From contig DATAJS010000008.1 in assembly GCA_036262035.1 (NCBI GenBank), forward strand, positions 1 to 64,000: a DNA stretch of 64,000 nt. Direction: 5' to 3'. Shown piece by piece: positions 12,538-27,954 of the stretch. This DNA is from Burkholderiales bacterium (GTDB taxonomy: Bacteria > Pseudomonadota > Gammaproteobacteria > Burkholderiales > SG8-41). The notes under the pieces are model-generated. The model worked only from the letters and a program-made list of their open reading frames with translations, searched no databases and was not told the origin of the DNA. Position numbers and translations under genes: made by a program. Numbering within the stretch: position 1 is the stretch's first letter; the number at the start of each line of letters is the position of its first letter.

Positions 12538-13526
12538 TGGGCGCCGCATTCGACCTGCACCCCGAGATGCAGGGGCTCGTCGCGGCGAAGCAAAAGGTGT
12601 CCGGCGCGCCCGCGTCGAAAGACCTGCGCGACGCGTGGAACAGCTACGGCGACAGCATGCAGCGGCCGTATCCGGCCGACATGGTCGTCGAGGACCGCCT
12701 GCTCGAAACCCCCGGCTGCGGCAGGGCGCTCACGCCGGTGCGCATCTACCGGCCGGCCGCCGTTCGCGAAACCGCCGCACCGTGCGTGCTCTACGTGCAC
12801 GGCGGTTCGTTCGTCAAAGGCAGCCTCGACAGCGGCGACGCGATCGCGTGGGGCATTGCGGATCAGGTGCCGGCGGTGGTCGTCAGCATCGACTACCGTC
12901 TCGCGCCCGAGCATCCGTTCCCCGCGGCGGTCGAGGACTGTTACGCCGTGCTGCAAACCGTCGCGGCGAACGCGGCCACGCTAGGCGTCGATTCCGAGCG
13001 CATCGGCGTCTGGGGAGACAGCGCCGGCGGCGGATTGAGCGCCGGGCTCTGCCTGCTCGCGCGCGATCGCAACGGACCGCGCATCGCGGCGCAGGCGCTG
13101 AACTATCCCATGCTCACCGACGAGCTCACGTCCGATGCGTACCGGACTTACGCCGAGTCGCCGGGCGCTCAGACCGCGTCGCTCGATGCGTGCTGGAGCC
13201 TGTACCTCGGAGAGCGGCGTCCGACGGACGATCCGTACGCCGCGCCGCTGAAGGCCAGGGATCTTGCAGGCCTGCCCCCGGCGCACGTGCACATCGCCGA
13301 GATCGATCCGCTGGCGGACGACGGCCGGCGCTACGCGCAGCGCCTCGAGCAGGCCGGCTGCACCGTCGAACTCCGTGTCGCGCGCCGCATGATCCACGGC
13401 TTCCTGCGCGCCAGGTTCTTCGGGCCCGATTCGTCCCGGGAATTTGCGCAGCCCTGCGCCTTTCTCGCGCGGTGGCTGCGCGCCGCGCATGACTCCACCG
13501 CGATCAGTCGATCTTCGCCCCGCTGA
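12537..13526 (+). CDS. HSL-family alpha/beta hydrolase (acetyl-esterase type)
   Basis: 329 residues of the Abhydrolase_3/hormone-sensitive-lipase group. It shows the HGGS oxyanion motif (88-91), DYRLAPEHPFPAAVEDCY (119-135), the nucleophile elbow GDSAGGG with Ser162, an acidic residue in EIDPLADD and the catalytic His in MIHGF. Its 3' end overlaps the 3' end of the convergent Bug gene by 23 bp, so the last few residues (HDSTAISRSSPR) are encoded across the antisense stop and may be dispensable. Confidence 0.92.
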   Translation: MGAAFDLHPEMQGLVAAKQKVSGAPASKDLRDAWNSYGDSMQRPYPADMVVEDRLLETPGCGRALTPVRIYRPAAVRETAAPCVLYVHGGSFVKGSLDSGDAIAWGIADQVPAVVVSIDYRLAPEHPFPAAVEDCYAVLQTVAANAATLGVDSERIGVWGDSAGGGLSAGLCLLARDRNGPRIAAQALNYPMLTDELTSDAYRTYAESPGAQTASLDACWSLYLGERRPTDDPYAAPLKARDLAGLPPAHVHIAEIDPLADDGRRYAQRLEQAGCTVELRVARRMIHGFLRARFFGPDSSREFAQPCAFLARWLRAAHDSTAISRSSPR

Positions 13527-14475
13527 TCTTCACGACCTTCGCGTATTTCTGATAGTCGGATTGCAGTCGCTGCGCGAACTGCTCCGGCGTCATGTGCATC
13601 GGGTCGAGCGTCTGCGCGCTGAGGTTCTTCGCCACGTCGGGATGGTCGAGCGCTTTCTTGAGCTCGGCATTCAACCGGTCGACGACGGGCCGCGGCGTGC
13701 CTTTCGGCACGAAGCAGGCGATCCACGCGGTGAACTCATAACCCGGCACCGCTTCCGCGAGCGCAGGCACGTCCGGAAACTGCGTGGTGCGCGTTTCCGA
13801 CGTCACCGCGATCGGACGCACGCGCTCCGCCTTGATGTTCGGGATCACCGACGCGATGGTGGCGACGACGCTCTGGATCTCCCCGGACGCGATGGCGATG
13901 TTCACCGGGCCGCCGCCCTTGTACGGCACGTGGACCATCTTCGTTCCGGTCATCGAGTTGAGCAGCGCCATCGCGAGATGCAGCAGACTGCCGCTGCCGG
14001 CGGAACCATAGATGATCTCGCCCGGCCGCTTTTTCGCCAGCGCGATGAAGTCCTGCGTGGTCTTCACCGGCATCGACGGGTGCACGACCAGCATGGCCAC
14101 CTGTCGCGCCAGCGTCGTGATGCCGATGAAATCGCCGAGGGTGTCGTAGGGCAGGTTCCTGTACAGATGGGCGTTCGCCACGTGCGTCGCCGACTGCACC
14201 ATCAGGGTGTAGCCGTCCGCCGGGCTTTTCGCGACGAGGTCGCTGCCGATCGTGCCCGACGCCCCGCCGCGGTTGTCGATGGCGAACTGCTGCCCCATCG
14301 TGTCGGACATCCTCTGAAAGACGATGCGCGCGACCACATCGTTGGAGCCGCCCGGCGGGAAAACCACGATCACCCGCACCGCCTTCGCCGGATAGGCTTG
14401 CGCGAAGACGGGCAAAGGCGTCAGCAGAGCTGCCGCTAAAACCGCGAATACTCCTACGTGCCGGTACGATTGCAT
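13504..14475 (-). CDS. Bug-family periplasmic solute receptor
   Basis: 323 residues; signal peptide ending VFAQ, then AVRVIVVFPPGGSNDVVAR, IDNRGGASGTIG, SPADGYTLMVQSATHVANAH and YAKVVKISGAKID at the end. A strong GGAGAGGAGAG precedes the ATG. It is the second gene after a shortened Bug gene (18 bp gap). It is strikingly similar along its full length to the Bug gene at 49968-50930, including shared stretches such as LMVQSATHVANAHLY and MVHVPYKGGGP, so the two are close paralogues about 36 kb apart. Confidence 0.92.
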   Translation of the reverse strand: MQSYRHVGVFAVLAAALLTPLPVFAQAYPAKAVRVIVVFPPGGSNDVVARIVFQRMSDTMGQQFAIDNRGGASGTIGSDLVAKSPADGYTLMVQSATHVANAHLYRNLPYDTLGDFIGITTLARQVAMLVVHPSMPVKTTQDFIALAKKRPGEIIYGSAGSGSLLHLAMALLNSMTGTKMVHVPYKGGGPVNIAIASGEIQSVVATIASVIPNIKAERVRPIAVTSETRTTQFPDVPALAEAVPGYEFTAWIACFVPKGTPRPVVDRLNAELKKALDHPDVAKNLSAQTLDPMHMTPEQFAQRLQSDYQKYAKVVKISGAKID

Positions 14476-14493: not shown

Positions 14494-15279
14494 TTATTCC
14501 GCCTTCATCTTGCGTTCGCGGATCACCTGCGCCCACTTCAGGATCTCGGCGATGGTCGGCACATCCGGCAGGACCGACGAGCGCTGCGGCATGCCCACCG
14601 CCAGTGCGATCAACCGGCCGTCCTTGATGAACTGGAGCAAGCTTGCCAGGCCCAGGATGGCGAAATGGACGCGCCCCGCCACGACTTCGAGCATGGCGTC
14701 CGACGCGCCCTTGAATCCCACCGACTTGGCCTTGATGCCCGAGGCGAGCTTGAAGCGCTCGCCGTTCATGAACGTCGAGCTGCCGACGCCCGCGTGGCTG
14801 TAGATCAGCTGGTTCGGCCTGGCCTTCGCGAGATCGACCAGCTCCCTGACCGTCCTGACGCCGGTGGAAGGCGACGTGATCAGCGCCGTGGTCGAGAACC
14901 CGAGGCGCGTGATGCCTGCGAAGTCCCGGGTCACGTCATACGGCAGGTTCTCGTGGACCGCCGCGCTGATGACGAAGGCCGCCGAAGAGACGAGCAGCGT
15001 ATAACCGTCCGGTGTCGGTTTCGCCACGAGGGCGGTGCCCAGCGTGCCGCCCGCTCCGGTGCGGTTTTCGATGACGACCGGCTGCGCCCAGATGTCGCTC
15101 AGCTTCGCGCCGAGGGTCCGCGCGAGAACGTCGGACGTGCCGCCGGGTGTGAACGGCACGACGATGCGTATCGGTTTGGTGGGATAGTGGGCGTTGCTCT
15201 TGTCCGCGTGCGCCACGCACGGCGCGACGAGACCCGACGCGACCGCGACGGTCAGCGTGACTCTTTGCAGTGCAGCCAT
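14494..15279 (-). CDS. Bug-family receptor with internal deletion in the C-terminal lobe
   Basis: Only 261 residues against about 320 in the other receptors. The N-terminal part is normal: signal peptide to VAHADK, PTKPIRIVVPFTPGGTSDVL, IENRTGAGGTLG and TPDGYTLLVSS. The usual PDVPTIAE motif is followed immediately by ILKWAQVIRERKMKAE, which is the normal C-terminal helix. The roughly 60 residues that usually separate them (AGxPGYE...W.G...PAGTP...V..LN.E) are missing without a frameshift. It is either a decayed receptor or a shortened functional one. It is the first gene of a two-Bug operon, with GAGGGAG ahead of the ATG. Confidence 0.85.
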   Translation of the reverse strand: MAALQRVTLTVAVASGLVAPCVAHADKSNAHYPTKPIRIVVPFTPGGTSDVLARTLGAKLSDIWAQPVVIENRTGAGGTLGTALVAKPTPDGYTLLVSSAAFVISAAVHENLPYDVTRDFAGITRLGFSTTALITSPSTGVRTVRELVDLAKARPNQLIYSHAGVGSSTFMNGERFKLASGIKAKSVGFKGASDAMLEVVAGRVHFAILGLASLLQFIKDGRLIALAVGMPQRSSVLPDVPTIAEILKWAQVIRERKMKAE

Positions 15280-15433
15280 GGCCGCTCCCTCTCACGTGTT
15301 GCGTTCGAGATCAGCGGATCTTCTTCGGGCGTGCAGTCCTTTCGGGTCGTGCCGGACGGCGGGCCGGCGACCACATTACGGACCAGATCGGGGCGCATGG
15401 CAAGCGCGGCGTATAGTTGGCCCGGAGGTCACG

Positions 15434-16468
15434 ATGCTCCTTCCCGTATCGCTCGTCGGCAGTTACCCGCAACCCGATTGGCTGATCGACCGAGCCGCGC
15501 TCGAGGCGCACGGCGTGCCGCGCGTGCGCGCGCAGCAGCTTTGGCGTATCCCGGAACCGCTGCTCGCCGAAGCGCAGCGTGACGCCACGCTGGTCGCCAT
15601 CCGCAGCCAGGAAGAAGCCGGGCTCGACATCATCACCGACGGCGAGATCCGTCGCGAGAGCTACTTCAACCGCTTCGCCACCGCGCTCGACGGCATCGAC
15701 AACGATCACCCGGGGACGGCGCTGAGCCGCGCCGGGCGGCCGACCGCGGTGCCGCGTGTCACCGGCGCGATCCGCCGCACGCGCCCGATCGAAGTCGAAG
15801 ACATGATCTTCCTGCGCGCGCACACGCGACGGCTCACCAAGATCACCGTTCCGGGTCCTTTCACCATGACGCAGCTCGCGCAGAACGAGCACTACCCGGA
15901 CGAGGAGAGCCTGGCGATGGCCTACGCCGACGCGGTCAACGCCGAGATCCGGGATCTGTTCGAGGCCGGCGCCGACTTCGTGCAGATCGACGAGCCTTAC
16001 ATGCAGGCGCAACCCGAGAAGGCGCGGCGCTACGCGGTCAAGGCGATCAACCGCGCGCTGGAGGGCATCGCCGGCACGACCGTCGTGCACATGTGCTTCG
16101 GCTACGCCGCCATGGTGAAAGCGGACAAGCCGGATCGCTATGCGTTTTTGGAAGAGCTTCGCGACTGCGCGTGCCGGCAGGTTTCGGTGGAGACCGCGCA
16201 GCCGCGACTGGATTGCTCGAGCCTGAAAGCGCTCGACAACAAGAAGATCCTGCTCGGCGTCATCGACCTCTCCGACCTGCGCGTGGAGACGCCGCAGACC
16301 GTGGCCGAGCGCATCCGCCGGGCGCTGCCTTACGTCGAAGCGCAGAACCTCATCGTCGCGCCCGACTGCGGCATGAAGTATCTGCCGCGCGACGTGGCGT
16401 TCGGCAAGATGCAGGCCATGGTCGAAGGGGCCGCGATCGTTCGCGCGGAGCTCGGCCCCTCCGCCTGA
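15434..16468 (+). CDS. MetE-like (cobalamin-independent methionine synthase C-terminal family) protein
   Basis: 344 residues, a single TIM barrel like the C-terminal half of MetE. The zinc site is complete: His219 and Cys221 in VVHMCFG, Glu253 in VSVETAQP and Cys312 in VAPDCGMK. N-terminal SLVGSYPQPDWL matches the family opening. Stand-alone forms often act on other thiol/methyl or xenobiotic substrates instead of homocysteine plus folate, so a methyltransferase or a lyase role is possible. A GGAGG precedes the ATG. It is divergent from the truncated-Bug operon and convergent with the FAH-family gene, and seems monocistronic. Confidence 0.88.
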   Translation: MLLPVSLVGSYPQPDWLIDRAALEAHGVPRVRAQQLWRIPEPLLAEAQRDATLVAIRSQEEAGLDIITDGEIRRESYFNRFATALDGIDNDHPGTALSRAGRPTAVPRVTGAIRRTRPIEVEDMIFLRAHTRRLTKITVPGPFTMTQLAQNEHYPDEESLAMAYADAVNAEIRDLFEAGADFVQIDEPYMQAQPEKARRYAVKAINRALEGIAGTTVVHMCFGYAAMVKADKPDRYAFLEELRDCACRQVSVETAQPRLDCSSLKALDNKKILLGVIDLSDLRVETPQTVAERIRRALPYVEAQNLIVAPDCGMKYLPRDVAFGKMQAMVEGAAIVRAELGPSA

Positions 16469-16477
16469 CGACGCCGG

Positions 16478-17263
16478 CTATTCGCCTACGATCGGGTTGC
16501 TCAGCGTGCCGATCCCGGTGATCTCGATCTCGCAGACGTCGCCGGGCTTCATGTTCTTGGGCCCGCCTTCGGTGCCCATCCAGATCACGTCGCCGGGGTT
16601 GAGCGTGCAGTACCGGCTGATCTCCGCGATGTACGTCTCGACGTCGTGGATCATGTTTCCGGTTTTGAAGCGATCCACTTCCTCGCCGTTGAGGCGGATC
16701 GCGGTCGTCATCTCGCGATAATCGAGATCGGTGACGATCCACGGCCCCATCGGCTTGAACGAGTCGCAGTTCTTCGCGCGCCACATGGTGCGGTCGCCGC
16801 GCTGCCACGTGCGCTCGCTGACGTCGTTGCCGATCGTCCAGCCGAAGACGTAGTCGAGCGCTTTCTCCTTGGGGACGTTCCTCCCCTTCTTCCCGATCAC
16901 CGCCACGAGCTCGCCCTCGTACTGGAAGAGCTCGCCGGCGTCTTTCGGCTTGACGATCGGGTCGCCGTGCGCGCAGAGCGCGTTCTGGGCGCGATAGCCG
17001 ACGTCCGGCCGCTGCGGAAACTGCGGCTCGACGCCTTTGCGCTTCGCCGACGCGATGATGTGGTCGCGGTAGTTGATGCCGACGCAGAAGAACGTCAGCG
17101 GTATCGTCGGCGCCAGCAGCTTGACCGACGACAGCGGGCGCTTTTGGCCGCCGGCGGTGTGCGGCTCCCAGGGCGCGCCGTCGATGGCGACCACGCTGTC
17201 ACCGTCGATCTTCCCGTACGACGTCTTTCCGTCCGCTTCGAAACGACACCATTTCGTGCTCAT
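16478..17263 (-). CDS. Fumarylacetoacetate hydrolase-family enzyme
   Basis: 261 residues. The FAH catalytic barrel contains the start motif FFCVGINYRDHI, the metal ligands in FQYEGELVAVIGKKGRN (ExE) and the aspartate in TIGNDVSERTWQRGD, and the closing GDVIWMGTEGG...MKPGDVCEIEITGIGTLSNP. Members hydrolyse or decarboxylate beta-diketo acids or isomerise hydroxymuconates (HpcE-like). It lies 20 bp after the molybdenum subunit gene and probably ends the long minus-strand operon, consistent with processing a ring-cleaved or keto-acid product. Confidence 0.92.
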   Translation of the reverse strand: MSTKWCRFEADGKTSYGKIDGDSVVAIDGAPWEPHTAGGQKRPLSSVKLLAPTIPLTFFCVGINYRDHIIASAKRKGVEPQFPQRPDVGYRAQNALCAHGDPIVKPKDAGELFQYEGELVAVIGKKGRNVPKEKALDYVFGWTIGNDVSERTWQRGDRTMWRAKNCDSFKPMGPWIVTDLDYREMTTAIRLNGEEVDRFKTGNMIHDVETYIAEISRYCTLNPGDVIWMGTEGGPKNMKPGDVCEIEITGIGTLSNPIVGE

Positions 17264-17283: not shown

Positions 17284-19551
17284 TTATGAATCGAGCGCCT
17301 GCAACACCTTCGGCGGCGACATCGGCAGGTCGGTCAGGCGCTTGCCGGTTGCGCGGCAGATCGCGTTGGCGATCGCCGCCATCGGCGGGACGATGTTGGC
17401 TTCCGCCACGCCCTTCACGCCGTACGGGTGATTCGGGTTCGGCACTTCGACCACGATCGTCTCGATCATCGGCAGGTCCGACGCCACCGGGATGCGATAG
17501 TCGAGGAAGCCGGGGTTCGAGAGCCGCCCGTCCTTGTCGTAGATGTACTCCTCGTTCAACGCCCAGCCGATCCCCTGCACCACGCCGCCCTGCATCTGGC
17601 CCTCGACGTATTTCGGATGCACGGCGCGGCCTGCGTCCTGCGCCGCGACGTAGCGCAGAATCTTCACCGCGCCGGTCTCGGGATCGACCTCGACGTCGCA
17701 GAACTGCGCCGCGAAACCGGGCGCCTGACCTTCGGCGTTGATGGCGGCCGCGGCGACGATCGGACCGCCCGTCGCGGTGCGCTTGGACGCGATGTCCTTG
17801 AACGACAGCGGCTCGAACTCGCCGGCGCGTTTGCCCGCAGGCCTCGCCTTGCCGTCTTCCCAGATCACGTCCGCGACGTCGATCTTCCAGATCTTCGCCG
17901 CGCGCGCGCACATCTCGGCGATCACCTTGTTGCACGCATCGATCACCGCGCGACCGGTGGCATAGGTGACGCGCGAGCCGCCGGTGGCCTGCGTGTAACC
18001 GACCGAGTTGGTGTCGGCGATGATCGGTCGCACGCGCTCGTAGTCGATCCCCAGCGTCTCGGCCGCCATCTGCGCGGTCGAGGCGCGCGAGCCGCCGATG
18101 TCCGGGCTGCCGGTCGCGACGACGGCACTGCCGTCCTCGTTGACGTGCACGGTCGCGCTCGATTCGCCGCCGCCGTTGAACCAGTAACCCACGGCCATGC
18201 CGCGTCCCTGGTTCTTGCCGAGCGGTTTGCTGTAGCCGGGATGCTCCTGCAGTGCGCGCAGCGTTTCGGCGAAACCCGCGTGCCCGATCTTCGCGCCGTG
18301 CACGAGCGGCGTGCCCGGCTTGGCGACGTTCTTCAGCCTGAAGGCCAGCGGGTCCATGTCGATCGCGCGCGCGGCCGCGTCCATGGTGCTCTCCACGGCG
18401 AACGCCGAGATCGGCGAGCCGGGCGCGCGGTACGCGACCGTCTTCGGGCGGTTGCACACCACGTCGTAGCCGATGGTGCGCACGTTGGCGATGTCGTACG
18501 GCGCGAAGCCGCACATCAGCCCGTTCATGACCGGCGACGTGGGGAAAGCGCCCGCCTGATACTTCATGAGGGCGTCGGCCGCGACGATGCGGCCGTCCTT
18601 CATGACGCCGATCCTGATGGTCATCGAAGCGCCGGACGTCGGTCCGGTCGCCTTGAACACTTCCTCCCGGCTCATCATGATCTTCACCGGATGGCCGGAC
18701 TTGCGCGACAGCGTCACCGCGACCGGTTCGACGTACACCACGGTCTTGCCGCCGAACGCTCCGCCGATCTCCGCGGCGTGCACGCGCAGGTCCGCGGTCT
18801 TGATGCCGAGCAGCTTGCACACCATGGTGCGCACCACGAAGTGTCCCTGGCTCGAGACCCAGAGCTCCACCTGGCCGTCGGAGTCGTAGCGCGCGAGCGT
18901 CGCGTGCGGCTCGATGTAGCCCTGGTGCACCGGTGCGGTCTTGAAGCTCAATTCGACGACCTTGTCGGCGGACGCGAAGCCCGCCTCGATGTCGCCCATC
19001 TTGTATTCGATGCGCTTGGAGACGTTCGACGGCGTCGAAGGCGGCGGATCGATGCCGCGCGTGATCATGTCCTCGAAGAGCAGCGGCGCCCCGGGTTGCA
19101 TCGCCTCGTCGACGTCGATGACGTGCGGCAGCACCTCGTAATCCACTTCGATCAGCTTGCACGCTTCTTCCGCGATCGCCGCCGTGGTCGCAGCGACCGC
19201 GGCGATGGCGTGGCCTTCGTACAACACCTTCTCGCGCGCCATGATGTTGCGCGTCATGTGCCAGAAATTCACCGCGACGCGCTCGGGACCGAGGTACTCG
19301 AACTTCTGGTCGGGCAGGTCCTTCGCGGTCATCACCGCCTTGACGCCTTTCAGCGCCTCCGCTTTGGACGTGTCGATCGAGCGGATGCGCGCATGCGCGT
19401 GCGGGGAGCGCAGGATCTTGCCCCATAGCATGCCGGGCAGATGGAAATCCGCCCCGTACTGGGCGAGGCCCGTCACTTTCGGCACGCCGTCGGGACGGAC
19501 CGGGCTGGTGCCGACGACTTTCAGCTCTCGTTCGGGGATGACGATCGCCAT
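17284..19551 (-). CDS. Molybdopterin-binding subunit of an xanthine-dehydrogenase-family hydroxylase
   Basis: A 755-residue large subunit (CoxL/HcrA/NdhL type). The N-terminal Ald_Xan_dh_C domain begins VGTSPVRPDGVPKVTGLAQY. The Mo-pterin binding segment has GGAFGGK (263-269), and the catalytic glutamate is in GVKGVAEAN (Glu717). It would hydroxylate a carbon of a heterocycle or aldehyde, or reduce an aryl-CoA, using water-derived oxygen. It is preceded two bases upstream by the 2Fe-2S subunit and then the FAD subunit, giving the complete three-subunit enzyme. Substrate is not evident; the neighbouring hydantoinase and FAH-family genes suggest catabolism of a nitrogen heterocycle (inference). 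Confidence 0.94.
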   Translation of the reverse strand: MAIVIPERELKVVGTSPVRPDGVPKVTGLAQYGADFHLPGMLWGKILRSPHAHARIRSIDTSKAEALKGVKAVMTAKDLPDQKFEYLGPERVAVNFWHMTRNIMAREKVLYEGHAIAAVAATTAAIAEEACKLIEVDYEVLPHVIDVDEAMQPGAPLLFEDMITRGIDPPPSTPSNVSKRIEYKMGDIEAGFASADKVVELSFKTAPVHQGYIEPHATLARYDSDGQVELWVSSQGHFVVRTMVCKLLGIKTADLRVHAAEIGGAFGGKTVVYVEPVAVTLSRKSGHPVKIMMSREEVFKATGPTSGASMTIRIGVMKDGRIVAADALMKYQAGAFPTSPVMNGLMCGFAPYDIANVRTIGYDVVCNRPKTVAYRAPGSPISAFAVESTMDAAARAIDMDPLAFRLKNVAKPGTPLVHGAKIGHAGFAETLRALQEHPGYSKPLGKNQGRGMAVGYWFNGGGESSATVHVNEDGSAVVATGSPDIGGSRASTAQMAAETLGIDYERVRPIIADTNSVGYTQATGGSRVTYATGRAVIDACNKVIAEMCARAAKIWKIDVADVIWEDGKARPAGKRAGEFEPLSFKDIASKRTATGGPIVAAAAINAEGQAPGFAAQFCDVEVDPETGAVKILRYVAAQDAGRAVHPKYVEGQMQGGVVQGIGWALNEEYIYDKDGRLSNPGFLDYRIPVASDLPMIETIVVEVPNPNHPYGVKGVAEANIVPPMAAIANAICRATGKRLTDLPMSPPKVLQALDS

Positions 19552-19553
19552 GT

Positions 19554-20030
19554 TCAGCTCCCTCGCATTTCAGCGGCGGCGTCGAGCACCGCCTCGATGA
19601 TCTTGTTGTAGCCGGTGCAGCGGCACAGGTTACCCGCGAGCCAGAAGCGCACTTCGGTTTCGGTCGGATCGGGATTGCGCTCGAGCAGCGACTTCGCCGC
19701 GACCAGCACGCCCGGCGTGCAGATGCCGCACTGGAGCGCGGCGTGCTCGAGGAACTTGCGCTGGAGCGGATGCAGCTTCTCGCCGTCGGCCATGCCTTCG
19801 ATCGTCCGGATCGATTTTCCCTGCACTTCGGCGCCGAGGATCAGGCACGAGCACATCAGCCGCCCGTCGACGGTGACGCTGCACGCGCCGCAGTCCCCCG
19901 TGGCGCAGCCTTCCTTGGTGCCGGTCAGGTGCAGCTCGTCGCGCAGGACCTGTAGCAGCGTCTGGCGTGTCTCGCACAGAAACTCGACGTCGTTGCCGTT
20001 GAGCCTGGTCGTTACATGGACTTTGGCCAT
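19554..20030 (-). CDS. 2Fe-2S subunit of the xanthine-dehydrogenase-family hydroxylase
   Basis: 158 residues. Cys42, 47 and 50 with Cys60/62 form the plant-type [2Fe-2S] site (GCATGDCGACSV...MCSC). Cys101, 104, 136 and 138 form the second cluster (CGICTPG...NLCRCTG). The upstream extension of the frame is arginine-rich antisense-like sequence, so the ATG at MAKVHV was chosen; it overlaps the FAD-subunit stop by one base (TGATG). It passes electrons from the Mo centre to FAD. Confidence 0.95.
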   Translation of the reverse strand: MAKVHVTTRLNGNDVEFLCETRQTLLQVLRDELHLTGTKEGCATGDCGACSVTVDGRLMCSCLILGAEVQGKSIRTIEGMADGEKLHPLQRKFLEHAALQCGICTPGVLVAAKSLLERNPDPTETEVRFWLAGNLCRCTGYNKIIEAVLDAAAEMRGS

Positions 20031-20902
20031 CAGTTCGTCTCCCGCGCGCGAGCGAGCGCGATTTGAGCGGCGCGCCGCGCCATCACGCCGGCCACCTTGA
20101 TCCGGTATTCCCTGGTGCCGCGCTTGTCGTCGATCGGACGGCACGCCGCGCTGACCGCGGCGGCCATGCGCTTGAGCGCGTCCTCATCGACCTTGGTGCC
20201 GATCAATGCCTTTGCGGCCTCGGGCACGAGCAACGCGCGCTCGGCCACCGCACCGATGCTCACACGCGCATCGGTGCACACACCCGATGCGTCGAGCGTG
20301 AGGTTGATCCCGGCGCCGACGACCGCGATGTCCATCTCGGTCCGGGGAATGAAGCGCAGATACGCGTCTCCCGACCGGGGCGGACGTTTCGGCAGCAGGA
20401 ACGACGCGACGATCTCGCCCTTGCCGAGCGAGGTCTTTCCCGGCCCCGTGCAGATGTCTTCGACTTTGACCTCGCGCCGCCCTTCAGGCCCCACGATGCT
20501 CGCGATCGCGCCCGCGGCGATCATCGCCGGCACGCTGTCGGCCGCGGGCGAAGCGTTGCACAAGTTACCGCCGACGGTCGCGCGTCCCTTGATCTGGGTC
20601 GAGCCGATCAGCCCCGCCGCTTCGGTGACGCCCGGCCACGCTTTCGAGAACGCCGCGTGCTCCATCAAGGCCATGCTGGAAACCGCGGCGCCGAAACGAT
20701 ACGCGCCGTTCTCGGCGACGACCGCCGTCATCTCGGGTATGCCTTTCACGTCGACCAGCAGCTCCGGCTCGACGCGGCCGCCCCGCATCTGGATCAGCAG
20801 GTCGGTGCCGCCGGCGAGGACTCTCGCCGTGCCTTTCGCGCCTGCCAGGAGCGCCACCGCGGCCTCCAGCGTGCCGGCCGCTTCATACCGCATGTCGTTC
20901 AT
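20030..20902 (-). CDS. FAD-binding subunit M of the xanthine-dehydrogenase-family hydroxylase
   Basis: 290 residues. It has the FAD_binding_5 pattern ARVLAGGTDLLIQMRGG near the N-terminus, a second flavin segment TVGGNLCNASPAADSVPAMIAAGA and a CO_deh_flav_C domain at the end (FIPRTEMDIAVVGAGINL). First gene of the hydroxylase trio; it starts 81 bp after the Bug stop, so it could have its own promoter or belong to the hydantoinase transcript. Confidence 0.95.
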   Translation of the reverse strand: MNDMRYEAAGTLEAAVALLAGAKGTARVLAGGTDLLIQMRGGRVEPELLVDVKGIPEMTAVVAENGAYRFGAAVSSMALMEHAAFSKAWPGVTEAAGLIGSTQIKGRATVGGNLCNASPAADSVPAMIAAGAIASIVGPEGRREVKVEDICTGPGKTSLGKGEIVASFLLPKRPPRSGDAYLRFIPRTEMDIAVVGAGINLTLDASGVCTDARVSIGAVAERALLVPEAAKALIGTKVDEDALKRMAAAVSAACRPIDDKRGTREYRIKVAGVMARRAAQIALARARETN

Positions 20903-20983: not shown

Positions 20984-21952
20984 CTATTCGACCTTGATTC
21001 CGGCGCTTTTCACGAGCTTCTCCCATTTCGGAAGCTGCACCCGGATCTGCTGCGCGAACTCCTCGGGCTTGTTGCCCACCGGATCGAAACCGAGGAACAG
21101 GAGACGCTTCCGGATCTCGGGGTCGTCGAGGCCTTTCACGATCTCGGCGTTGATGCGGTCGACGATCGCGCGCGGCGTCCCCGCCGGCACCAGCAGGCCC
21201 TGCATGTGGTCGACTTCGAAGCCTTTGTAGCCCGATTCGTCGAACGTCGGCACCTCGGGCATCGCGGGGGAGCGCTTGAGGCTGGTGATCGCCAGCGCCC
21301 GCAGCGCGCCGCTGGCGACGTGAGGCTGCGCCGCCGGAACCGAGATGAAACCGGACTGCACGTGGCCGCCGATCACCGCCGGCATCATGGTCGCGCCGGT
21401 GTACGGCACGTGCGTGATGCTCGCGCCGGCTGCGAGCCTGAAGAGCTCGGTGGCGAGATGCTGCGCGGTGCCCGCGCCGGGCGATGCGCAGTTGAACGTG
21501 CCGGGGTTCGCCCTGGTCAGCGCGACGAGCTCTTTCACGTTCGCCGCTTTCACCGAAGGGTGGAGCAGCAGCACGCTCGGCGCGCTCGCGATGTACGACA
21601 CCGGCTGGAAATCCTTCAGCGGGTCGTACGGCACTTTGGAGTACAGGCTGGGATTCACCACGAAGCTGCTGCTGACGAGCACCATCACGTGACCGTCGGG
21701 GCTGCCTTTCGCGGCGATCGCGGTGCCGATGTTGCCGCCCGCGCCCGGACGGTTGTCCACGATCACCTGCTGTCCCAGCGCGCTGGTGAGGCGGTTCGCC
21801 ATGATGCGCGCGAGCGCATCGGTCGATCCGCCGGGCGGCCACGGCACGATCATGCGTATGGTGCGGCTCGGATAACCGGTCGGCCCCTGCTGGGCCACGG
21901 CGGCGGTATTGAACGCCAGAAGAACGAGTGCTGCGAGTCGAATCGCGATCAT
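20984..21952 (-). CDS. Bug-family periplasmic solute receptor
   Basis: 322 residues. The start ATG overlaps the stop of the racemase-like gene (ATGA), which rules out the longer upstream frame. Signal peptide MIAIRLAALVLLAFNTAAVA; then SRTIRMIVPWPPGGSTDALAR, VDNRPGAGGNIG, SPDGHVMVLV and LPKWEKLVKSAGIKVE. This and the receptor at the head of the same operon bracket the hydantoinase and racemase genes, indicating two uptake or sensing receptors for one pathway. Confidence 0.93.
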   Translation of the reverse strand: MIAIRLAALVLLAFNTAAVAQQGPTGYPSRTIRMIVPWPPGGSTDALARIMANRLTSALGQQVIVDNRPGAGGNIGTAIAAKGSPDGHVMVLVSSSFVVNPSLYSKVPYDPLKDFQPVSYIASAPSVLLLHPSVKAANVKELVALTRANPGTFNCASPGAGTAQHLATELFRLAAGASITHVPYTGATMMPAVIGGHVQSGFISVPAAQPHVASGALRALAITSLKRSPAMPEVPTFDESGYKGFEVDHMQGLLVPAGTPRAIVDRINAEIVKGLDDPEIRKRLLFLGFDPVGNKPEEFAQQIRVQLPKWEKLVKSAGIKVE

Positions 21953-23061
21953 GGGTTCAGGTACATCCTCTGGATGCCCGGCCGGATCTCGCACGCGAGG
22001 TCGGTCAGCCGCCCCGCTCTGGTGTGCGCGATCACGTCCTCGGGCGTTATGCGATCAGAACCCTGCGCGCCGATGATGACGACTTCGTCACCCGCTTTCG
22101 CGTCGGGCGCGTCGGTCAGATCGATGCGGGTGTACTCGATCGAAGGCGGGCCGAGTATCGCCGCGCGCGCGCCGCCGACGAGCACCGCGCCGGCGTTGAG
22201 CCGATGCAGGCCGTCGCTGTAGCCGATCGGGATGACGCCGAGCCGTTTCGGCGAGCGCCCGCCGAACGGCGCCTGCGCCGGAAACTCGGTGCGATGCACC
22301 GGCTTCGCTTCGAGCAGCGTCGTCCTCAGCTTCGCGAGCGGCTGCGCCTCGTCGGCGCTGCCTTCGAGCGGGGTGAACAGCGCCTGGCCGGGATCGACGC
22401 CGTCGAGGTTCATCGCCTTCGTCATGCGCAGCACCTTGGAGCTCGCCATCACGCGCAGCGGAATGCTCACCCCGAGCGCCTCCGCCTCGCGGCACGCGCG
22501 GTCGAAGCGCTCGTACTGCCACTGCAGACACTCGTCGGCATCGGCCGCGGCGGTGATCGACGGATGGGTGTTGACGATCGCGACGCGCAGCTTGCCCGCG
22601 CGCGCCACCCGCGCGATGTATTCGGCCGCGGCATCGGACGGAACGCCGATGCGCTCGTTGCCCGCGTCGATCTTGATCGCGCAGTCGAGCTGGTCGGTCA
22701 CGTTCGCGAGGAGCGCGCCCAGCGACGCTTCGTCGTGCAGCGTCGGGATGATGCGATGGCGCTCGATCGCACGGACCGAGTCGGCGTCGTACGGCACGCC
22801 GGCGTAGAGCAGGATCGGCGACGTAATTCCGGCCTCGCGCAGCGCGATCGCATCGGCGAGGCTGATGAGCGAGATCGCGTCGGCGCCCGCGCCGAGCACC
22901 GCTTTCGCGACCGGGACGAGGCCGAAGCCGTAGCCGTTCGCTTTCAGCGTGCCGAAGAACTTCACCGACGGTGGAATCGCTTCCCGGATCGCACGCGTGC
23001 AGCGGCGGATCGCTTCGAGATCGATCTCGACGACGTTGGGACGCAGCCAGGACGCGCTCAT
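21949..23061 (-). CDS. Alanine-racemase-fold PLP enzyme with altered active site
   Basis: 370 residues with the fold-type III PLP enzyme layout. The Schiff-base lysine is in FGTLKANGYGFG, the substrate arginine in DAGNERIGV, and GYSDGLHRL and a C-terminal barrel are present. However, positions that define classical alanine racemases differ. The PLP-nitrogen arginine motif VRPGxALYG reads VDPGQALFT. The segment before IPIGYSDG has no tyrosine where the catalytic VSYG tyrosine is expected (nearest is PFGG). The CMDQ loop reads PPSIEY. It is coupled by ATGA overlaps to hyuB upstream and a Bug gene downstream. A racemase or related activity on a hydantoinase product is plausible; housekeeping alanine racemase is unlikely. 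Confidence 0.8.
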   Translation of the reverse strand: MSASWLRPNVVEIDLEAIRRCTRAIREAIPPSVKFFGTLKANGYGFGLVPVAKAVLGAGADAISLISLADAIALREAGITSPILLYAGVPYDADSVRAIERHRIIPTLHDEASLGALLANVTDQLDCAIKIDAGNERIGVPSDAAAEYIARVARAGKLRVAIVNTHPSITAAADADECLQWQYERFDRACREAEALGVSIPLRVMASSKVLRMTKAMNLDGVDPGQALFTPLEGSADEAQPLAKLRTTLLEAKPVHRTEFPAQAPFGGRSPKRLGVIPIGYSDGLHRLNAGAVLVGGARAAILGPPSIEYTRIDLTDAPDAKAGDEVVIIGAQGSDRITPEDVIAHTRAGRLTDLACEIRPGIQRMYLNP

Positions 23062-24776
23062 GCCGATTTCCTCCTCGCCGCCGCGGTCGCGGCCGCGTCG
23101 ACCTCTCCCCCCGCGCGCACGACGACGCCGTATTCGTCGTGCGCGTGCCCGATCGAGATCTTGCCCTGCTTCAGGTCCTCGAGCACCGCGTCGACGTCGC
23201 GCTCGAGCGGGTCGCCGTAACCGCCGGCCGCGGCCATCTCGGCGCGGAAGACTTCTCCACGCTCGAGCCTGCGCATGAACTTCGACGGCAGCGCTTCCTC
23301 GCGATCGGTGCCGGGGTTCATGAACGCCCGCGCGGCCGAGCCGGCACGCCCGCCGAAGATTCCCCACGGCGGATGATGGAAGCGGTCGGAGCGCACCTGC
23401 ACCAGCACGTCGTCGACGAGCATGCGGTACTGGCGCACCACGCCCAGCGCGCCGCGATACTTGCCGGGACCGCCCGAATTCGGAATGAACGAATACTCGT
23501 CGATGCGCAGCGGGTACTCCGCTTCGAGCAGCTCGACGGGCACGTTCGCGAGATTGCCGATGCAATACGGCCCGCCGTCCTGCCCGTCGCGATCCGGACC
23601 GCCGCCCTGGCCCGTGTTGTTGTGAAACTCGAGATGGACGAAGCGCCGCTGCTCGTCGTTGTACCCCGACGCGGAGATTGCGAACTCCGAGCCGCCGGGA
23701 CAGCCCGTCAGCCGATCGGGCATGAGCTGCGCAAGCGCGCCGAGCACGACCGAGCGGATGCGCTGCCCGCTCTGGCCGCGCGAGCCGAGCGCCGCGGGGA
23801 ACGGTGCATTGACGAACGTGCCTTCGGGCGCGATCACCTCGATCGTTCTGTACACGCCGGCGTTGCTCGGGATGTCGAGATCGAGCACGGTGCGGATCGC
23901 CGCGTACGAGCACGACGCGGTGAACGCGTAATTGCTGTGCACCGCGCCGCCGAGTCGGAAATCGGTGCCGCTGAAATCGACCGTGAGCGCTTCGCCTTTC
24001 TTGGTGAGCTTCGCGTGGATGCGCACCGGGCCGCCGCCGGCGCCGTCGTCGTCGTTCCATTCGGTGAACTCGCCGACCCCGTCGGGCAGCGCGGCGATCT
24101 GCGCACGCGCGAGACGCTCCGCGTAATCCATGAGGTCGGCGAGATACGCGCAGAACTCGTCGACGTCCCAGCCCGAGACGAGCTTCAGGAGCTCTTTCTC
24201 GGCCTGCTGGATCGCCGCGATCTGCGCGTGCACGTCGCCGAGCACCCGGTCGGGGACGCGCGTGTTGAACTCGATGATGCGCAGCAGGGTCTCGTTCAGG
24301 CGCCCCGCTTCGACGATCTTGCACGGCGGGATGCGCAGACCTTCCTCGAAGATCTCGTTGCTGTCGGTGGCGTTGCCGCCCGGCACGCGGCCTCCGAGGT
24401 CGGTGTGGTGCAGGATGATGCCGATCCACGCGATGCGCCGTCCGGCTGCGTACACCGGCTTGAACATGAAGATGTCGTTCAAGTGGCTGCCGCCCGAGAA
24501 CGGATCGTTGAGCGCGAGCACGTCGCCTTCCTCGATCCGGTTCCTGAAAGGCTCAACGCAGCCGCGGAACGCCGGCATCATCGCGCCCAGGTGCACCGGC
24601 ACCGCGAGCCCCTGCGCCGCGAGCTGGCCGTCGGCGTCGAGGATCGCAGCCGAGAAATCCATGCTGTTCTTGACGTTCGACGAGCGCGCGGTGCGCACGA
24701 TCATCACCAGCACGTTGTCGGTGATGGTGACGAGCGCGTTGTGCAGCAGCTCGCGTTTGACCGGGTTGATGTTCAC
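23058..24776 (-). CDS. hyuB: Hydantoinase/oxoprolinase subunit B
   Basis: 572 residues. The GTG start overlaps the hyuA stop as GTGA, giving VNINPVKRELLHNALVTITD, the expected N-terminus. Family blocks seen are SMDFSAAILDADGQLAAQG, GDVLALNDPFSGGSHLND, ILHHTDLGGRVPGG and GQGGGPDRDGQDGG. With HyuA it forms an ATP-dependent cyclic-amide hydrolase (hydantoin, 5-oxoproline or N-methylhydantoin type) or an acetone/acetophenone-carboxylase-like enzyme. The absence of a carboxylase gamma subunit and the presence of a racemase-like gene favour the amidohydrolase role. Confidence 0.93.
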   Translation of the reverse strand: MNINPVKRELLHNALVTITDNVLVMIVRTARSSNVKNSMDFSAAILDADGQLAAQGLAVPVHLGAMMPAFRGCVEPFRNRIEEGDVLALNDPFSGGSHLNDIFMFKPVYAAGRRIAWIGIILHHTDLGGRVPGGNATDSNEIFEEGLRIPPCKIVEAGRLNETLLRIIEFNTRVPDRVLGDVHAQIAAIQQAEKELLKLVSGWDVDEFCAYLADLMDYAERLARAQIAALPDGVGEFTEWNDDDGAGGGPVRIHAKLTKKGEALTVDFSGTDFRLGGAVHSNYAFTASCSYAAIRTVLDLDIPSNAGVYRTIEVIAPEGTFVNAPFPAALGSRGQSGQRIRSVVLGALAQLMPDRLTGCPGGSEFAISASGYNDEQRRFVHLEFHNNTGQGGGPDRDGQDGGPYCIGNLANVPVELLEAEYPLRIDEYSFIPNSGGPGKYRGALGVVRQYRMLVDDVLVQVRSDRFHHPPWGIFGGRAGSAARAFMNPGTDREEALPSKFMRRLERGEVFRAEMAAAGGYGDPLERDVDAVLEDLKQGKISIGHAHDEYGVVVRAGGEVDAAATAAARRKSA

Positions 24777-26869
24777 GCGCGCTCCAGGTGTACGTTGTTC
24801 CAGCGGTCGAGCCGCGCCGTCCAGCCCGGCCGCACGATGATGGTGGTGTCGTATTCCTCGACGATGAGCGGCCCGCTGCGCGGCTGCGCATCGAGATCGG
24901 CGCGCTCGATCACCGGGGTGTCGCACCAGCCGTGCTGCTCGCCGAAATAAGCGCGGCGCGCCGGCTCGCCGCGGCGCGCGCGCGTGTTGCCGTGCGTGAT
25001 GCGCGTAGGGGTGCGCGGGGTCGCCGACAGTCCCTGAGCGGTGGCCTTGATCGCGACCGACTGGACGATCTCGCCGGTGACGTAGCCGAAGGTGCGGCGG
25101 TGCTCTTCCTCGAACGACCTGAACAGCGTGGCGACAGTGTCCGCGGTGGCCGGGTACTGCGACAGCGGGATCGTCAGCGTGGACGACTGCGCGCGGTATT
25201 GCATATCGAGGCTCACCGTGATGCGCTGCTGGTGCGCGGCCGCATACCCTTCCTCGGCGAGGAGCTTGCGTGCGCCTTCGACCAGACTCAGCGCGGCGGC
25301 GTTGATGTCGTCCGCCGAGCCCGTCGTGAGCCGCCGGTAGAAACCTTTCGCGAGGTGATGCTCGACGTCGGCGAACAGCATCCCGAGCGCGCTGAACAGG
25401 CCCGCCACCGGCGGCACCACGATACGGTTCATGCCGGCGGAATCGGCGAGGGTCGCGGCATGCACCGGGCCGTTGCCGCCGATCGCGAGCAGCGCGAACT
25501 TCGCCGGGTCCTGCCCGCGCTCCGAGGAGACGCTGCGCAGCGCGCGCAGCATCGTCGCATTGGCGATCGCGTGGATGCCGTACGCGGTCTCGGTGGCGTC
25601 GAGCCCGACGCGCGCGCCGAGCGTACGAATCGCCTGCCGCGCCTTGTCGGCATTGAGCGCGAGCTCACCGCCGACGAGCGCGGCGGGATTGAGATAGCCG
25701 AGCGCCAGGTTCGCATCGGTCACGGTCGGCTGGGTCCCGCCGTGGTCGTAGCACACAGGCCCCGGATCGGCGCCCGCGCTGCGCGGCCCGACCTTGATGC
25801 CGCTCGCTTCGTCGACCATCGCGATGCTGCCGCCGCCGGCGCCGACTTCGGCGATGTCGATCGTCGGCGCCTGCACCGGGTAGCCCGCGCCTTTGATCAT
25901 GCGATTGCCCATGAGCGCGCCGCCGCCGACCTCGCACTCGGGGCTCATGCCGAACGCGTGGTTCTCGATGATCGTCGCCTTGGCAGTGGTCCCGCCCATG
26001 TCGAAGACGATCAGGTCGGCGATGCCGATCTGCTCGCCGAGCCGCTGCCCGCCGAGCACGCCGGCGGCGGGCCCTGACTCGATGATCGTGAGCGAGCGCT
26101 CGGCGACCGTCGGCGCGGGCGCGATGCCGCCGCTCGACTGCATGATCATGAGGGGCGCGGCGACTTCGAGCGCTTCGAGCCTCGCGTTCAGCGCGTTGAC
26201 GTAGGACTGCACGACCGGACGGATGTACGCGTTGATCACGGTGCTGCTGGTGCGTTCGTACTCGCCGATCTGCGGCATGAGCGAGGTCGACGTGGTGACC
26301 GACACCGCCGGGAGCCTGCGCCGGAAGAACGCCGCGGCCTGCGCCTCGTGCGCATCGTTCGCATAGGAGTTGATGAAGCAGATCGCGAGCGCGTTGATGT
26401 TCTCGCGCTCGAGCGCCTGTGCGACGCTTTCCAGCGCGGCGCTGTCGAGCGCTTCGACGACTTCGCCTTTCGAGCTCACGCGCTCGGGCACTTCGAAGCG
26501 CAGCCGGCGCGGCACCAGCGGCTCGGGCTTGCGAAACCCCATGTCATACGGGCGCGGCGCGCGAAACCGGCCGAGCTCGAGGACGTCGCCGAAACCGCGG
26601 GTCGTTACGAGCGCGACGCGCACGCCTTTGCGCTCGATGATCGCGTTGGTGGCGACGGTGGTCGCGTGCACGAACTCGCCGATCTGCGCGCCGCGAACCG
26701 ACAGCTCGCTGAGAAGCTCGCGCAGGCCCGACTCGATCGCCGCGCTGTAATCGTGCGGCGTCGAAAGAAGCTTCTTGCTGTAGACGGTACCGCTGTTTGA
26801 TACGAGGACGATGTCCGTGAACGTTCCGCCGATGTCCACGCCCGCCCTGTAGTGCTCTTCTGTTGCCAA
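24773..26869 (-). CDS. hyuA: Hydantoinase/oxoprolinase subunit A
   Basis: 698 residues. Hydant_A_N at the N-terminus carries YRAGVDIGGTFTDIVL and HATTVATNAIIERKG. The central Hydantoinase_A ATPase-like domain has LIVFDMGGTTAKATI, GGGSIAMVDEASG, VGPRSAGADPGPVCYDHGG and ALLAIGGNGPVHAA. The C-terminal domain ends before EHGWCDTPVIERADL. It is the ATP-using subunit that pairs with HyuB. It starts 18 bp after the leading Bug gene of the operon and overlaps hyuB by four bases. Confidence 0.93.
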   Translation of the reverse strand: MATEEHYRAGVDIGGTFTDIVLVSNSGTVYSKKLLSTPHDYSAAIESGLRELLSELSVRGAQIGEFVHATTVATNAIIERKGVRVALVTTRGFGDVLELGRFRAPRPYDMGFRKPEPLVPRRLRFEVPERVSSKGEVVEALDSAALESVAQALERENINALAICFINSYANDAHEAQAAAFFRRRLPAVSVTTSTSLMPQIGEYERTSSTVINAYIRPVVQSYVNALNARLEALEVAAPLMIMQSSGGIAPAPTVAERSLTIIESGPAAGVLGGQRLGEQIGIADLIVFDMGGTTAKATIIENHAFGMSPECEVGGGALMGNRMIKGAGYPVQAPTIDIAEVGAGGGSIAMVDEASGIKVGPRSAGADPGPVCYDHGGTQPTVTDANLALGYLNPAALVGGELALNADKARQAIRTLGARVGLDATETAYGIHAIANATMLRALRSVSSERGQDPAKFALLAIGGNGPVHAATLADSAGMNRIVVPPVAGLFSALGMLFADVEHHLAKGFYRRLTTGSADDINAAALSLVEGARKLLAEEGYAAAHQQRITVSLDMQYRAQSSTLTIPLSQYPATADTVATLFRSFEEEHRRTFGYVTGEIVQSVAIKATAQGLSATPRTPTRITHGNTRARRGEPARRAYFGEQHGWCDTPVIERADLDAQPRSGPLIVEEYDTTIIVRPGWTARLDRWNNVHLERA

Positions 26870-26887: not shown

Positions 26888-27871
26888 TCAATCGACTTTC
26901 AATCCGATGCGCGACACGAGCTTAACCGTAGCGTCGTATTCTGCCCGAAGCATGGCCTCGAACTCCGCCGCGCTTTTTCCCACCGGCTCGGCGCCCGCTT
27001 TCGAGATGCGCTCGCGCACTTCGGGGTTCGCGAGCACCGCAACGATCTCCTGGTTGAGCTTCGCGACGATCGCCGGCGGCGTGCCGGCGGGCACGAACAC
27101 GCCGATCCACGTCATGTGGGAAAAGCCCGGATAGCCGCTCTCGGCCACCGTCGGCACGTCGCTCAACGTCGGCCAGCGCTTCTCCGACGTGACCGCCAGC
27201 GCGCGCAGGATGCCGGAGGCGACCGACGGCGCCGCGGACGGCACCGCGGCCATCGCGAGCGGAATCGAGCCGCCGACCACGTCCATGTGCGACTGCGCCG
27301 CGCTCTTGTACGGCACGTGCGTGATGTCGACGTTCGCAGCCGCCTTGAACATCTCCATCGCGATGTTGGTCGGCGAGCCGTTGCCCGCGCTGCCGTAGGA
27401 CAGCTTGCCGGGCGCGGCGCGGGCGGCGCTCAGAAGGTCTTTCAGCGTGCGATACGGGAGCTTGGGGCTGGTGACGATCACCGACGGCGCTTCGGTGAGC
27501 TGAACGACCGCGACGAAGTCTTTCCGCGGGTCGTATCCCGGATTCCTGTAGATGAGCGGATTGATGTTGTGGCTGTTCGTCGTCTCGAGCAGCGTATGAC
27601 CGTCCGCGGCGGCTTTGGATACGTACGCCGTTCCGATGTTGCCGCCCGCGCCGGGCCGATTCTCGACGACGACCTGGCGTCCGAGATTGCGCGTCAGACG
27701 CTCCGCCACGATGCGGCCGATCACGTCGAGGCCGCCGCCCGGCGCGTAGCAGATGACGAGCTGCACGGCCTTGGCCGGATAGTCGGCGGCCCTGTCCTGC
27801 TTCTCCTGCGCGGTCACGCTGCTGCACGCGAGCGCGAACAGCCACGCCGCGTTGCGGATGACGCCGTTCAT
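26888..27871 (-). CDS. Bug-family periplasmic solute receptor, head of the hydantoinase operon
   Basis: 327 residues. Start ATG follows GGAGGAGGC; the longer frame from 27931 has no signal sequence. Signal peptide MNGVIRNAAWLFALACSSVTAQ; then AVQLVICYAPGGGLDVIGR (an unusual ICYAPG in place of IVPFAPG), VENRPGAGGNIG, AADGHTLLET and TVKLVSRIGLKVD at the end. First gene of the operon and divergent from the flavin-nucleotide oxidase-like gene across an 83-bp intergenic space. Confidence 0.92.
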   Translation of the reverse strand: MNGVIRNAAWLFALACSSVTAQEKQDRAADYPAKAVQLVICYAPGGGLDVIGRIVAERLTRNLGRQVVVENRPGAGGNIGTAYVSKAAADGHTLLETTNSHNINPLIYRNPGYDPRKDFVAVVQLTEAPSVIVTSPKLPYRTLKDLLSAARAAPGKLSYGSAGNGSPTNIAMEMFKAAANVDITHVPYKSAAQSHMDVVGGSIPLAMAAVPSAAPSVASGILRALAVTSEKRWPTLSDVPTVAESGYPGFSHMTWIGVFVPAGTPPAIVAKLNQEIVAVLANPEVRERISKAGAEPVGKSAAEFEAMLRAEYDATVKLVSRIGLKVD

Positions 27872-27954
27872 GAGCGAGCCTCCTCCTCCGTTCCCGGGAA
27901 ATGTTACCCTGCCCGTTCGCACCCTCACCACTCAACCCGAACCGGACAACCGCG

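Follow-up and report, generated by a model that had tools for sequence, protein, structure and literature searches.

The window analyzed here is a stretch of 64,000 nucleotides from a Burkholderiales bacterium (contig DATAJS010000008.1, assembly GCA_036262035.1), and its minus strand carries at 21949-23061 a gene for an alanine racemase (Alr)-like enzyme dependent on pyridoxal 5'-phosphate (PLP). The gene belongs to a likely operon with the order hyuA, hyuB, Alr-like gene, Bug/TctC receptor, three-subunit molybdenum hydroxylase and a gene of the fumarylacetoacetate (FAA)-hydrolase family. When the nearest start codons are taken, the neighbouring reading frames overlap by four bases at hyuA/hyuB (GTGA), hyuB/Alr-like gene (ATGA) and Alr-like gene/receptor (ATGA). 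Proteins that share an Asp at the position of Arg219 of alanine racemase are called Asp-type below, and residue numbers of known sites are those of Geobacillus stearothermophilus Alr. The subject gene and the codons of its key residues are as follows.

21949-23061, minus strand: alanine-racemase-like PLP enzyme of 370 residues, the subject gene (translation, Pfam, NCBIfam, profile alignment, structure match)
22942-22944, minus strand: codon of Lys40, the PLP-binding lysine (Lys39 of Geobacillus Alr), in all 26 Asp-type proteins (profile alignment, residue table)
22804-22806, minus strand: codon of Tyr86, clade-specific, over Leu85 (residue table)
22564-22566, minus strand: codon of His166, kept in all 26 (residue table)
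22393-22395, minus strand: codon of Asp223, which replaces Arg219, the partner of the pyridine N1 (profile alignment, residue table)
22276-22278, minus strand: codon of Ala262, over the catalytic Tyr265 (profile alignment, residue table)
22126-22137, minus strand: codons of Glu309-Tyr310-Thr311-Arg312, the clade motif E-(H/Y)-x-R over Asp313-Gln314-Cys315-Met316 (profile alignment, residue table)

By domain content and predicted fold, the product of 21949-23061 is a complete protein of the alanine racemase fold (PLP fold type III). Pfam identified Ala_racemase_N (E 2.9e-40, 138.7 bits against a cut-off of 24.1) and Ala_racemase_C (E 4.9e-16, 58.9 bits against a cut-off of 25), and the score with TIGR00492, the NCBI equivalog model for alanine racemase, was 166.4 against a cut-off of 168. 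A predicted monomer model built on 53 aligned sequences had a mean predicted local distance difference test (pLDDT) score of 93.0 and matched the solved alanine racemase 1sft over its whole length (Z 36.4, root-mean-square deviation 2.1, 351 residues, 27% identity). The weakest ten-residue block of the model, 261-270 with a mean pLDDT of 66, corresponds to the hairpin that holds Tyr265 in alanine racemase. Comparison with the 85%-identical gene L008, a betaproteobacterial member, gave 0.089 nonsynonymous (dN) and 0.49 synonymous (dS) substitutions per site, and the resulting dN/dS of ~0.18 indicates purifying selection; together with conservation over five phyla, this rules out a pseudogene. 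The window genome also carries a canonical alr elsewhere (L001, with the motifs VRPG and VGYGG), canonical at both 219 and 265, and the subject gene is consequently not the organism's only alr.

A profile of 22 clade members was aligned to G. stearothermophilus Alr (1bd0/1sft; ~27% identity), and residue tables were compiled for 26 Asp-type and 41 canonical proteins. Rows L073, L001, L018, L022, L021, L004 and L056 were excluded (duplicates, fragments, extraction errors or proteins other than Alr), L073 being the same gene as L095; the Chloroflexota rows L145 and L146 stand, like L001, outside the 41, and all three are canonical at 219 and 265. In the profile alignment, Asp223 falls on Arg219, a variable non-Tyr position (Ala262 in the window protein) falls on Tyr265, and Ser307-Ile308-Glu309-Tyr310 lies over Cys311-Met312-Asp313-Gln314. 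The Arg219 column is Asp in 26/26 Asp-type and Arg in 41/41 canonical proteins, while Tyr265, found in all 41 canonical enzymes, is replaced throughout the Asp-type proteins (Glu 16, Ala 5, Asp 2, Arg 2, Ser 1), none of which has a Tyr anywhere in the 253-275 hairpin; these differences are far beyond chance. The gate residue Tyr354 is likewise absent from all 26 (His 14, Pro 4, Thr 4, four others) and present in 38/41 canonical proteins, and Tyr284 is kept in 4/26 compared with 41/41. Met312 has become Leu (24) or Ile (2) where 40/41 canonical proteins have Met, and Asp313, Asp in 39/41, is uniformly Glu (Glu309). Two further residues were gained in every Asp-type protein: Tyr86, over a Leu85 column that in the 41 canonical proteins holds Leu 31, Phe 5, Met 4 and Ile 1 and never Tyr, and Arg312, which aligns with Met316 of the Geobacillus enzyme and occurs in none of the 41. 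Leu85 belongs to the nonpolar PLP face of S. pneumoniae alanine racemase (PMC3146814). At position 310, 23 of the 26 have His and the other 3 Tyr, and an Arg follows the Gly after Asp223-Pro in 19 (DPGR, DPGQ or DPGH in the clade). Lys39, Tyr43, Arg136 and His166 are kept throughout, and a smaller first comparison of 22 Asp-type with 36 canonical proteins gave the same residue pattern.

A preliminary description of this gene had noted the retained lysine of KANGYG, the reading VDPGQALFT in place of VRPGxALYG, the loss of the VSYG tyrosine and the reading PPSIEY in place of CMDQ. These observations are borne out and extend to the clade: the lysine and the Asp are invariant, Alr has VRxGxAxYG at the second motif, the Tyr265 column is free of Tyr, and PPSIEY lies over xxCMDQ in the alignment. 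The loss of Tyr354, the loss of most Tyr284 and the gain of Tyr86, Glu309 and Arg312 go beyond that description. It had also named another Tyr and Arg in the same positions as the finding that would count against it; in the alignment, the gained residues fall elsewhere, Tyr86 over Leu85 and Arg312 over Met316. The argument that an acid near the PLP nitrogen implies a different protonation state agrees with the literature on Arg219, Asp223 being placed near the pyridine N1 by alignment to solved enzymes at ~27% identity.

According to that literature, Arg219 of Alr bonds the pyridine N1, keeps it unprotonated and suppresses side reactions (PMC3245724; PMC5025676), and by preventing N1 protonation it has been proposed to destabilise the carbanionic intermediate (PMC3245724). 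Tyr265 is the L-side base (PMC3245724; PMC6411801) and, with Tyr354, forms the narrowest gate of the active-site entrance (PMC3245724; PMC3146814). Both positions have been engineered. For an Alr-based enzyme to be a good beta-eliminase, R209E in E. coli numbering would likely be required (PMC5025676); an acid-for-Arg change in Geobacillus Alr gave a 5.4-fold rise in transamination, as cited in PMC5025676; and a D-specific aldolase results when Tyr265 of Alr is replaced by Ala (PMC6411801; PMC4401734), with His166 as the proposed base (PMC4401734). Among the matches listed in the open-access literature, titles and abstract openings mentioned neither an Alr-like protein with a natural acid at 219 nor one coupled to a hydantoinase or oxoprolinase.

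Maximum-likelihood trees, midpoint-rooted and built from 23 clade and 36 canonical rows and then from 24 and 29 (the second omitting three clade rows that were near-duplicates and some of the canonical ones), separated the Asp-type proteins together with L095 from the canonical enzymes by a branch with support 100/100. L095 is sister to all other clade members in the trees. It has Asn219, retains Tyr265, possesses Tyr86 and Glu309-His310 and lacks Arg312.

L095:2050-3144, minus strand: Alr-like gene with Asn219, Tyr265 and Glu309-His310, beside hyuB and hyuA (residue table, neighbourhood)

L095 is a likely intermediate stage of the active-site change, and if the canonical enzymes are taken as outgroup, Arg219 would have been lost before Tyr265; its position is less sure than the support suggests because its branch is long. 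With the clade profile, Asp-type proteins scored at least 330.7 bits and the L095 gene 295, and the best other match, the canonical L145, scored 288.4. On TIGR00492, 8/10 Asp-type proteins tested pass the cut-off of 168 (range 157.3-238.2 bits; the window protein and L078 are below it), as does L095, and Asp-type proteins are therefore likely to be misnamed alanine racemase.

In total, 26 Asp-type proteins were found, in five phyla going by record titles. The search of the window's order gave Asp-type proteins in 2/349 genomes (the window genome and G055) and that of its phylum in 1/398, the window's own; 40 other genomes of the phylum scan had weaker matches, and the 19 of them that were read are all canonical. 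The type is commoner in the phylum of L009, Candidatus Rokuibacteriota (17/95 genomes). It was found in the starting genome only around the Actinomycetes genome of L010 (among 249 and 396) and the Bacillota genome of L011 (among 43), and in 4/400 genomes around the Chloroflexota genome of L012, where the other seven matches are canonical. These counts are lower bounds because only few candidates per genome were scored in the large searches. Four genomes searched together each have a second, lower-scoring Alr-like protein. Plasmid searches matched 138 records, none of which reached 60% identity; among the 15 rows listed, alr is the annotation of 14 (33-35% identity), and one is unannotated.

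The other genes of the operon and the receptor gene just upstream of it are listed below.

26888-27931, minus strand: another Bug/TctC-like receptor, immediately upstream of hyuA (groups by BLAST with the Pfam-confirmed receptor)
24773-26869, minus strand: hyuA, Hydantoinase_A with three domains, TTG start assumed (Pfam, NCBIfam)
23058-24776, minus strand: hyuB, Hydantoinase_B, GTG start assumed (Pfam, NCBIfam)
20984-21952, minus strand: Bug/TctC-type solute receptor, ATG start assumed (Pfam)
20030-20902, minus strand: molybdenum hydroxylase, flavin adenine dinucleotide (FAD) subunit (Pfam, NCBIfam)
19554-20030, minus strand: molybdenum hydroxylase, [2Fe-2S] subunit, ATG start assumed (Pfam, NCBIfam)
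17284-19551, minus strand: molybdenum hydroxylase, large (Mo-binding) subunit (Pfam, NCBIfam)
16478-17263, minus strand: FAA-hydrolase-family protein, last gene of the likely operon (Pfam, NCBIfam)

Expansion of Bug/TctC receptors is typical of Burkholderiales, and by BLAST clustering six genes of one such cluster lie in one stretch, at 11578-12537 on the plus strand and at 13504-14475, 14494-15279, 20984-21952 (the one checked with Pfam), 26888-27931 and 30944-about 31900 on the minus strand. Opposite the operon, 15194-16468 (plus strand) encodes a short methionine-synthase-like (Meth_synt_2) protein that reaches the cut-off of none of the 12 NCBIfam models listed for it. ARAGORN called a tRNA-Thr at 18459-18543 (plus strand), antisense inside the large-subunit gene of the molybdenum hydroxylase; this is probably a false positive, since no Rfam match was found in the window at the gathering threshold.

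The coupling to hyuAB claimed in the preliminary description is seen in the ATGA overlap with hyuB and recurs in three phyla. hyuA and/or hyuB adjoin the Alr-like gene or lie at most two genes off in 8/26 Asp-type loci (window, L008, L009, L079, L089, L152, L153 and L154), and both are next door in L095. L009 and L079 show hyuA alone, the hyuA reading frame of L079 reaching the contig end. Neighbouring genes were called with a simple script, the Alr-like genes of L151 and L154 being recovered by translation, and contigs often end within a few genes of the Alr-like gene. Among Chloroflexota, three of the four Asp-type loci have hyuAB next door, and L154 has the order hyuA-hyuB-alr-like with the same ATGA overlap between hyuB and the Alr-like gene as in the window. 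In L152 (3421-14011) and L153 (3449-14063), the Alr-like gene stands between two hyuB-hyuA pairs, with a peptide-type ABC transporter further on; the gene beside it we take, by resemblance, to be MlrC-like. L010 has a divergent D-hydantoinase-like neighbour scoring 392.5 bits against a cut-off of 393.25. With 226 hyuB genes in 122 Mb (22 genomes), hyuB was observed within 6 kb of the Alr-like gene in 4 of the 22 genomes, compared with 0.50 expected (Poisson 0.0018).

In the HyuA tree, the sequences from the window, L008, L009, L079, L089 and L095 form one clade (97/90), with the unlinked HyuA of L101 inside it. The HyuAs of L152 and L153 fall outside this clade, and the L154 HyuA lies at the opposite end of the tree, which rules out a single co-inherited hyuA lineage for all linked loci; the second HyuA tree was built without four unlinked rows of the first and without one of the five new HyuAs (the first of L153). 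Since the linked HyuAs belong to more than one lineage, coupling to HyuAB probably arose more than once, and such repetition speaks for a functional link. Reading 20 kb and 19 kb around the unlinked HyuA relatives L101 and L120 turned up no Alr-like open reading frame. At L138 (8120-16421, minus strand), the HyuA that falls in the linked clade without itself being linked is accompanied by hyuB, with an allantoinase/dihydropyrimidinase-like gene two or three genes away, again a cyclic-amide context.

The explanation we favour, if only tentatively, is that the Asp-type proteins form a separate clade of the alanine racemase fold whose active site has shifted from racemase to carbanion-stabilising chemistry, and that they act as PLP lyases after HyuAB. 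HyuAB, or elsewhere perhaps a D-hydantoinase-like enzyme, would open a cyclic amide and release an amino acid, with whose D-enantiomer the Alr-like enzyme would form an aldimine. Asp223 would keep the PLP ring nitrogen protonated, by which the quinonoid would be stabilised, and the absence of Tyr265 would remove proton transfer on the L-side and open the pocket to larger substrates, an opening suggested by the loss of the two tyrosines, 265 and 354, that form the narrowest gate. The C-alpha/C-beta bond would then be broken by retro-aldol reaction or beta-elimination, with Lys40 and His166 as bases, and an aldehyde or keto acid would feed the pathway; in the window, the molybdenum hydroxylase may oxidise the ring or the aldehyde. 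The combination of a protonated cofactor with D-specific C-alpha/C-beta cleavage is proposed because the clade has both kinds of change fixed. Judged from sequence, the protein probably cuts or remodels an amino acid other than alanine rather than racemising alanine, and its most likely activity is that of a PLP lyase (aldolase or beta-eliminase) on a D-amino acid released by cyclic-amide opening. As for the substrate, the hydantoin-derived compound suggested in the preliminary description is plausible, although no more specific designation than the product of a cyclic-amide hydrolase can be given, and nothing was found in favour of its second suggestion, an N-acyl amino acid.

Several observations weigh against this explanation. 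Eighteen of the 26 Asp-type loci have no hyuA or hyuB nearby (several of their contigs end early). The hyuB control was not corrected for kinship and counts neither hyuA-only nor Chloroflexota loci; once the window genome, which prompted the question, is excluded, 3 are observed for 0.49 expected (p 0.014), and if its near twin G716 is dropped too, 2 for 0.48 (p 0.084, not significant). Because significance falls away in this manner on exclusions, hyuB density alone is suggestive and not decisive. In six loci, an HpcH/HpaI-aldolase-like gene adjoins the Alr-like gene or lies two genes off; these loci all belong to the Rokubacteria group, and Pfam was run on one of the aldolase-like members. 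A gene clustering with the large subunit of the window's molybdenum hydroxylase occurs in six loci including the window, one of which is also among the HpcH/HpaI loci; with such neighbours in some loci, the substrate may differ between branches. The natural fold-type III D-threonine aldolase of known structure has Gln and not Asp at N1 (PMC4401734). Finally, a new second base could come from Glu309, His/Tyr310 and Arg312, and this would point to a racemase.

That last point leads to the strongest rival, which we regard as unlikely though far from negligible: an enzyme that racemises or epimerises an unusual amino acid or amino-lactam, in which the partner subunit provides a new second base (His/Tyr310 together with Arg312 and Glu309) in place of Tyr265 and a stereospecific HyuAB then consumes both enantiomers. 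Known hydantoin pathways pair a racemase with a stereospecific cyclic-amide hydrolase, and a racemase beside HyuAB would follow the same logic. The motif E-(H/Y)-x-R is fixed in all 26 proteins and lies on the strand that contributes Met312 to the partner active site (PMC3245724), and in L095 Glu309-His310 stands beside an intact Tyr265, which would allow a hand-over of the base. Against this, the proposed base at position 310 is of no single residue type, and Arg219, the suppressor of side reactions in Alr, has been replaced by an acid. An improbable alternative is an alpha-decarboxylase of a D-amino acid or D-centre. Fold-type III decarboxylases, such as those for ornithine and diaminopimelate, carry an acidic residue at N1 as part of an EPGR motif. 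The DPGR/DPGQ/DPGH of the clade, with its frequent Arg, resembles Glu274/Arg277 of ornithine decarboxylase (PMC5518511), but the protein ends in an Ala_racemase_C domain, and Pfam and NCBIfam gave no match to a decarboxylase family at E up to 0.001. More improbable still is another PLP reaction, either transamination or a role as PLP carrier or regulatory protein, with no turnover of the HyuAB product; it would agree with the raised transamination of the engineered acid-for-Arg variant (as cited in PMC5025676) and fits poorly with a full two-domain enzyme that conserves His166 and Arg136 and is tightly coupled to a catabolic-looking operon. An ordinary alanine racemase whose Arg and Tyr are hidden by alignment artefacts is very improbable despite the TIGR00492 passes and the close structure match, given an Asp in an ungapped motif around 219 in every member and a separate canonical alr in the genome, and a merely misaligned Tyr is ruled out by the Tyr-free hairpin.

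Arg219 and Tyr265 are the accepted reason that Alr racemises and does little else (PMC3245724; PMC5025676). With much the same reserve as for the lyase function itself, we suggest that the clade may represent a natural, previously unrecognised enzyme class on the Alr scaffold, in which an acid at the cofactor nitrogen and loss of the catalytic Tyr, changes that engineers made separately, evolved together to give a D-specific lyase acting after HyuAB ring opening, the Asn219/Tyr265 sister preserving an intermediate stage. With a natural Asp219 clade that lacks Tyr265, and such a sister, ideas on what controls the reaction specificity of PLP could be tested on naturally occurring enzymes. Standard annotation is likely labelling as alanine racemase proteins that lack the residues of that mechanism, and a PLP enzyme tied to the HyuAB family may help to find substrates for both.

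Compared with known systems, the clade shares with alanine racemase (EC 5.1.1.1; TIGR00492; 1sft) both Pfam domains, the whole-length fold, the PLP lysine, Tyr43, Arg136 and His166, and differs from it in having Asp for Arg219, in lacking Tyr265 and Tyr354, in the changes of Met312 to Leu/Ile and Asp313 to Glu, and in the gained Tyr86 and Arg312. Like the engineered Y265A aldolase and the R219E/R209E variants of Alr, it has an acid at 219 and no Tyr265, here combined, but the clade is natural, the changes are fixed in the members found, the acid is Asp and not Glu, and further clade-specific changes are present. D-threonine aldolase and D-serine dehydratase have a C-terminal domain of their own; this domain, with its metal ligands, is not in the 370-residue protein, which has Ala_racemase_C there instead, with no other Pfam family matching at E up to 0.001. 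D-threonine and D-3-hydroxyaspartate aldolases, fold-type III enzymes with D-amino-acid chemistry, show partial barrel resemblance (profile E 1.7e-5 to 1.1e-4), but the known structure of D-threonine aldolase has Gln249 as N1 partner and a metal site (PMC4401734). The fold-type III decarboxylases of ornithine and diaminopimelate share, by alignment, the acid followed by PG and often Arg, and for ornithine decarboxylase a Cys360/Asp361 stretch is also listed (PMC5518511). Unlike them, the clade protein pairs its barrel with Ala_racemase_C and has no decarboxylase family match. VanT serine racemase and the broad-specificity and lysine racemases (4ecl, 4dza, 4beu) have the same fold (Z 33.6-35.9), and these racemases are expected to keep the Arg/Tyr pair.

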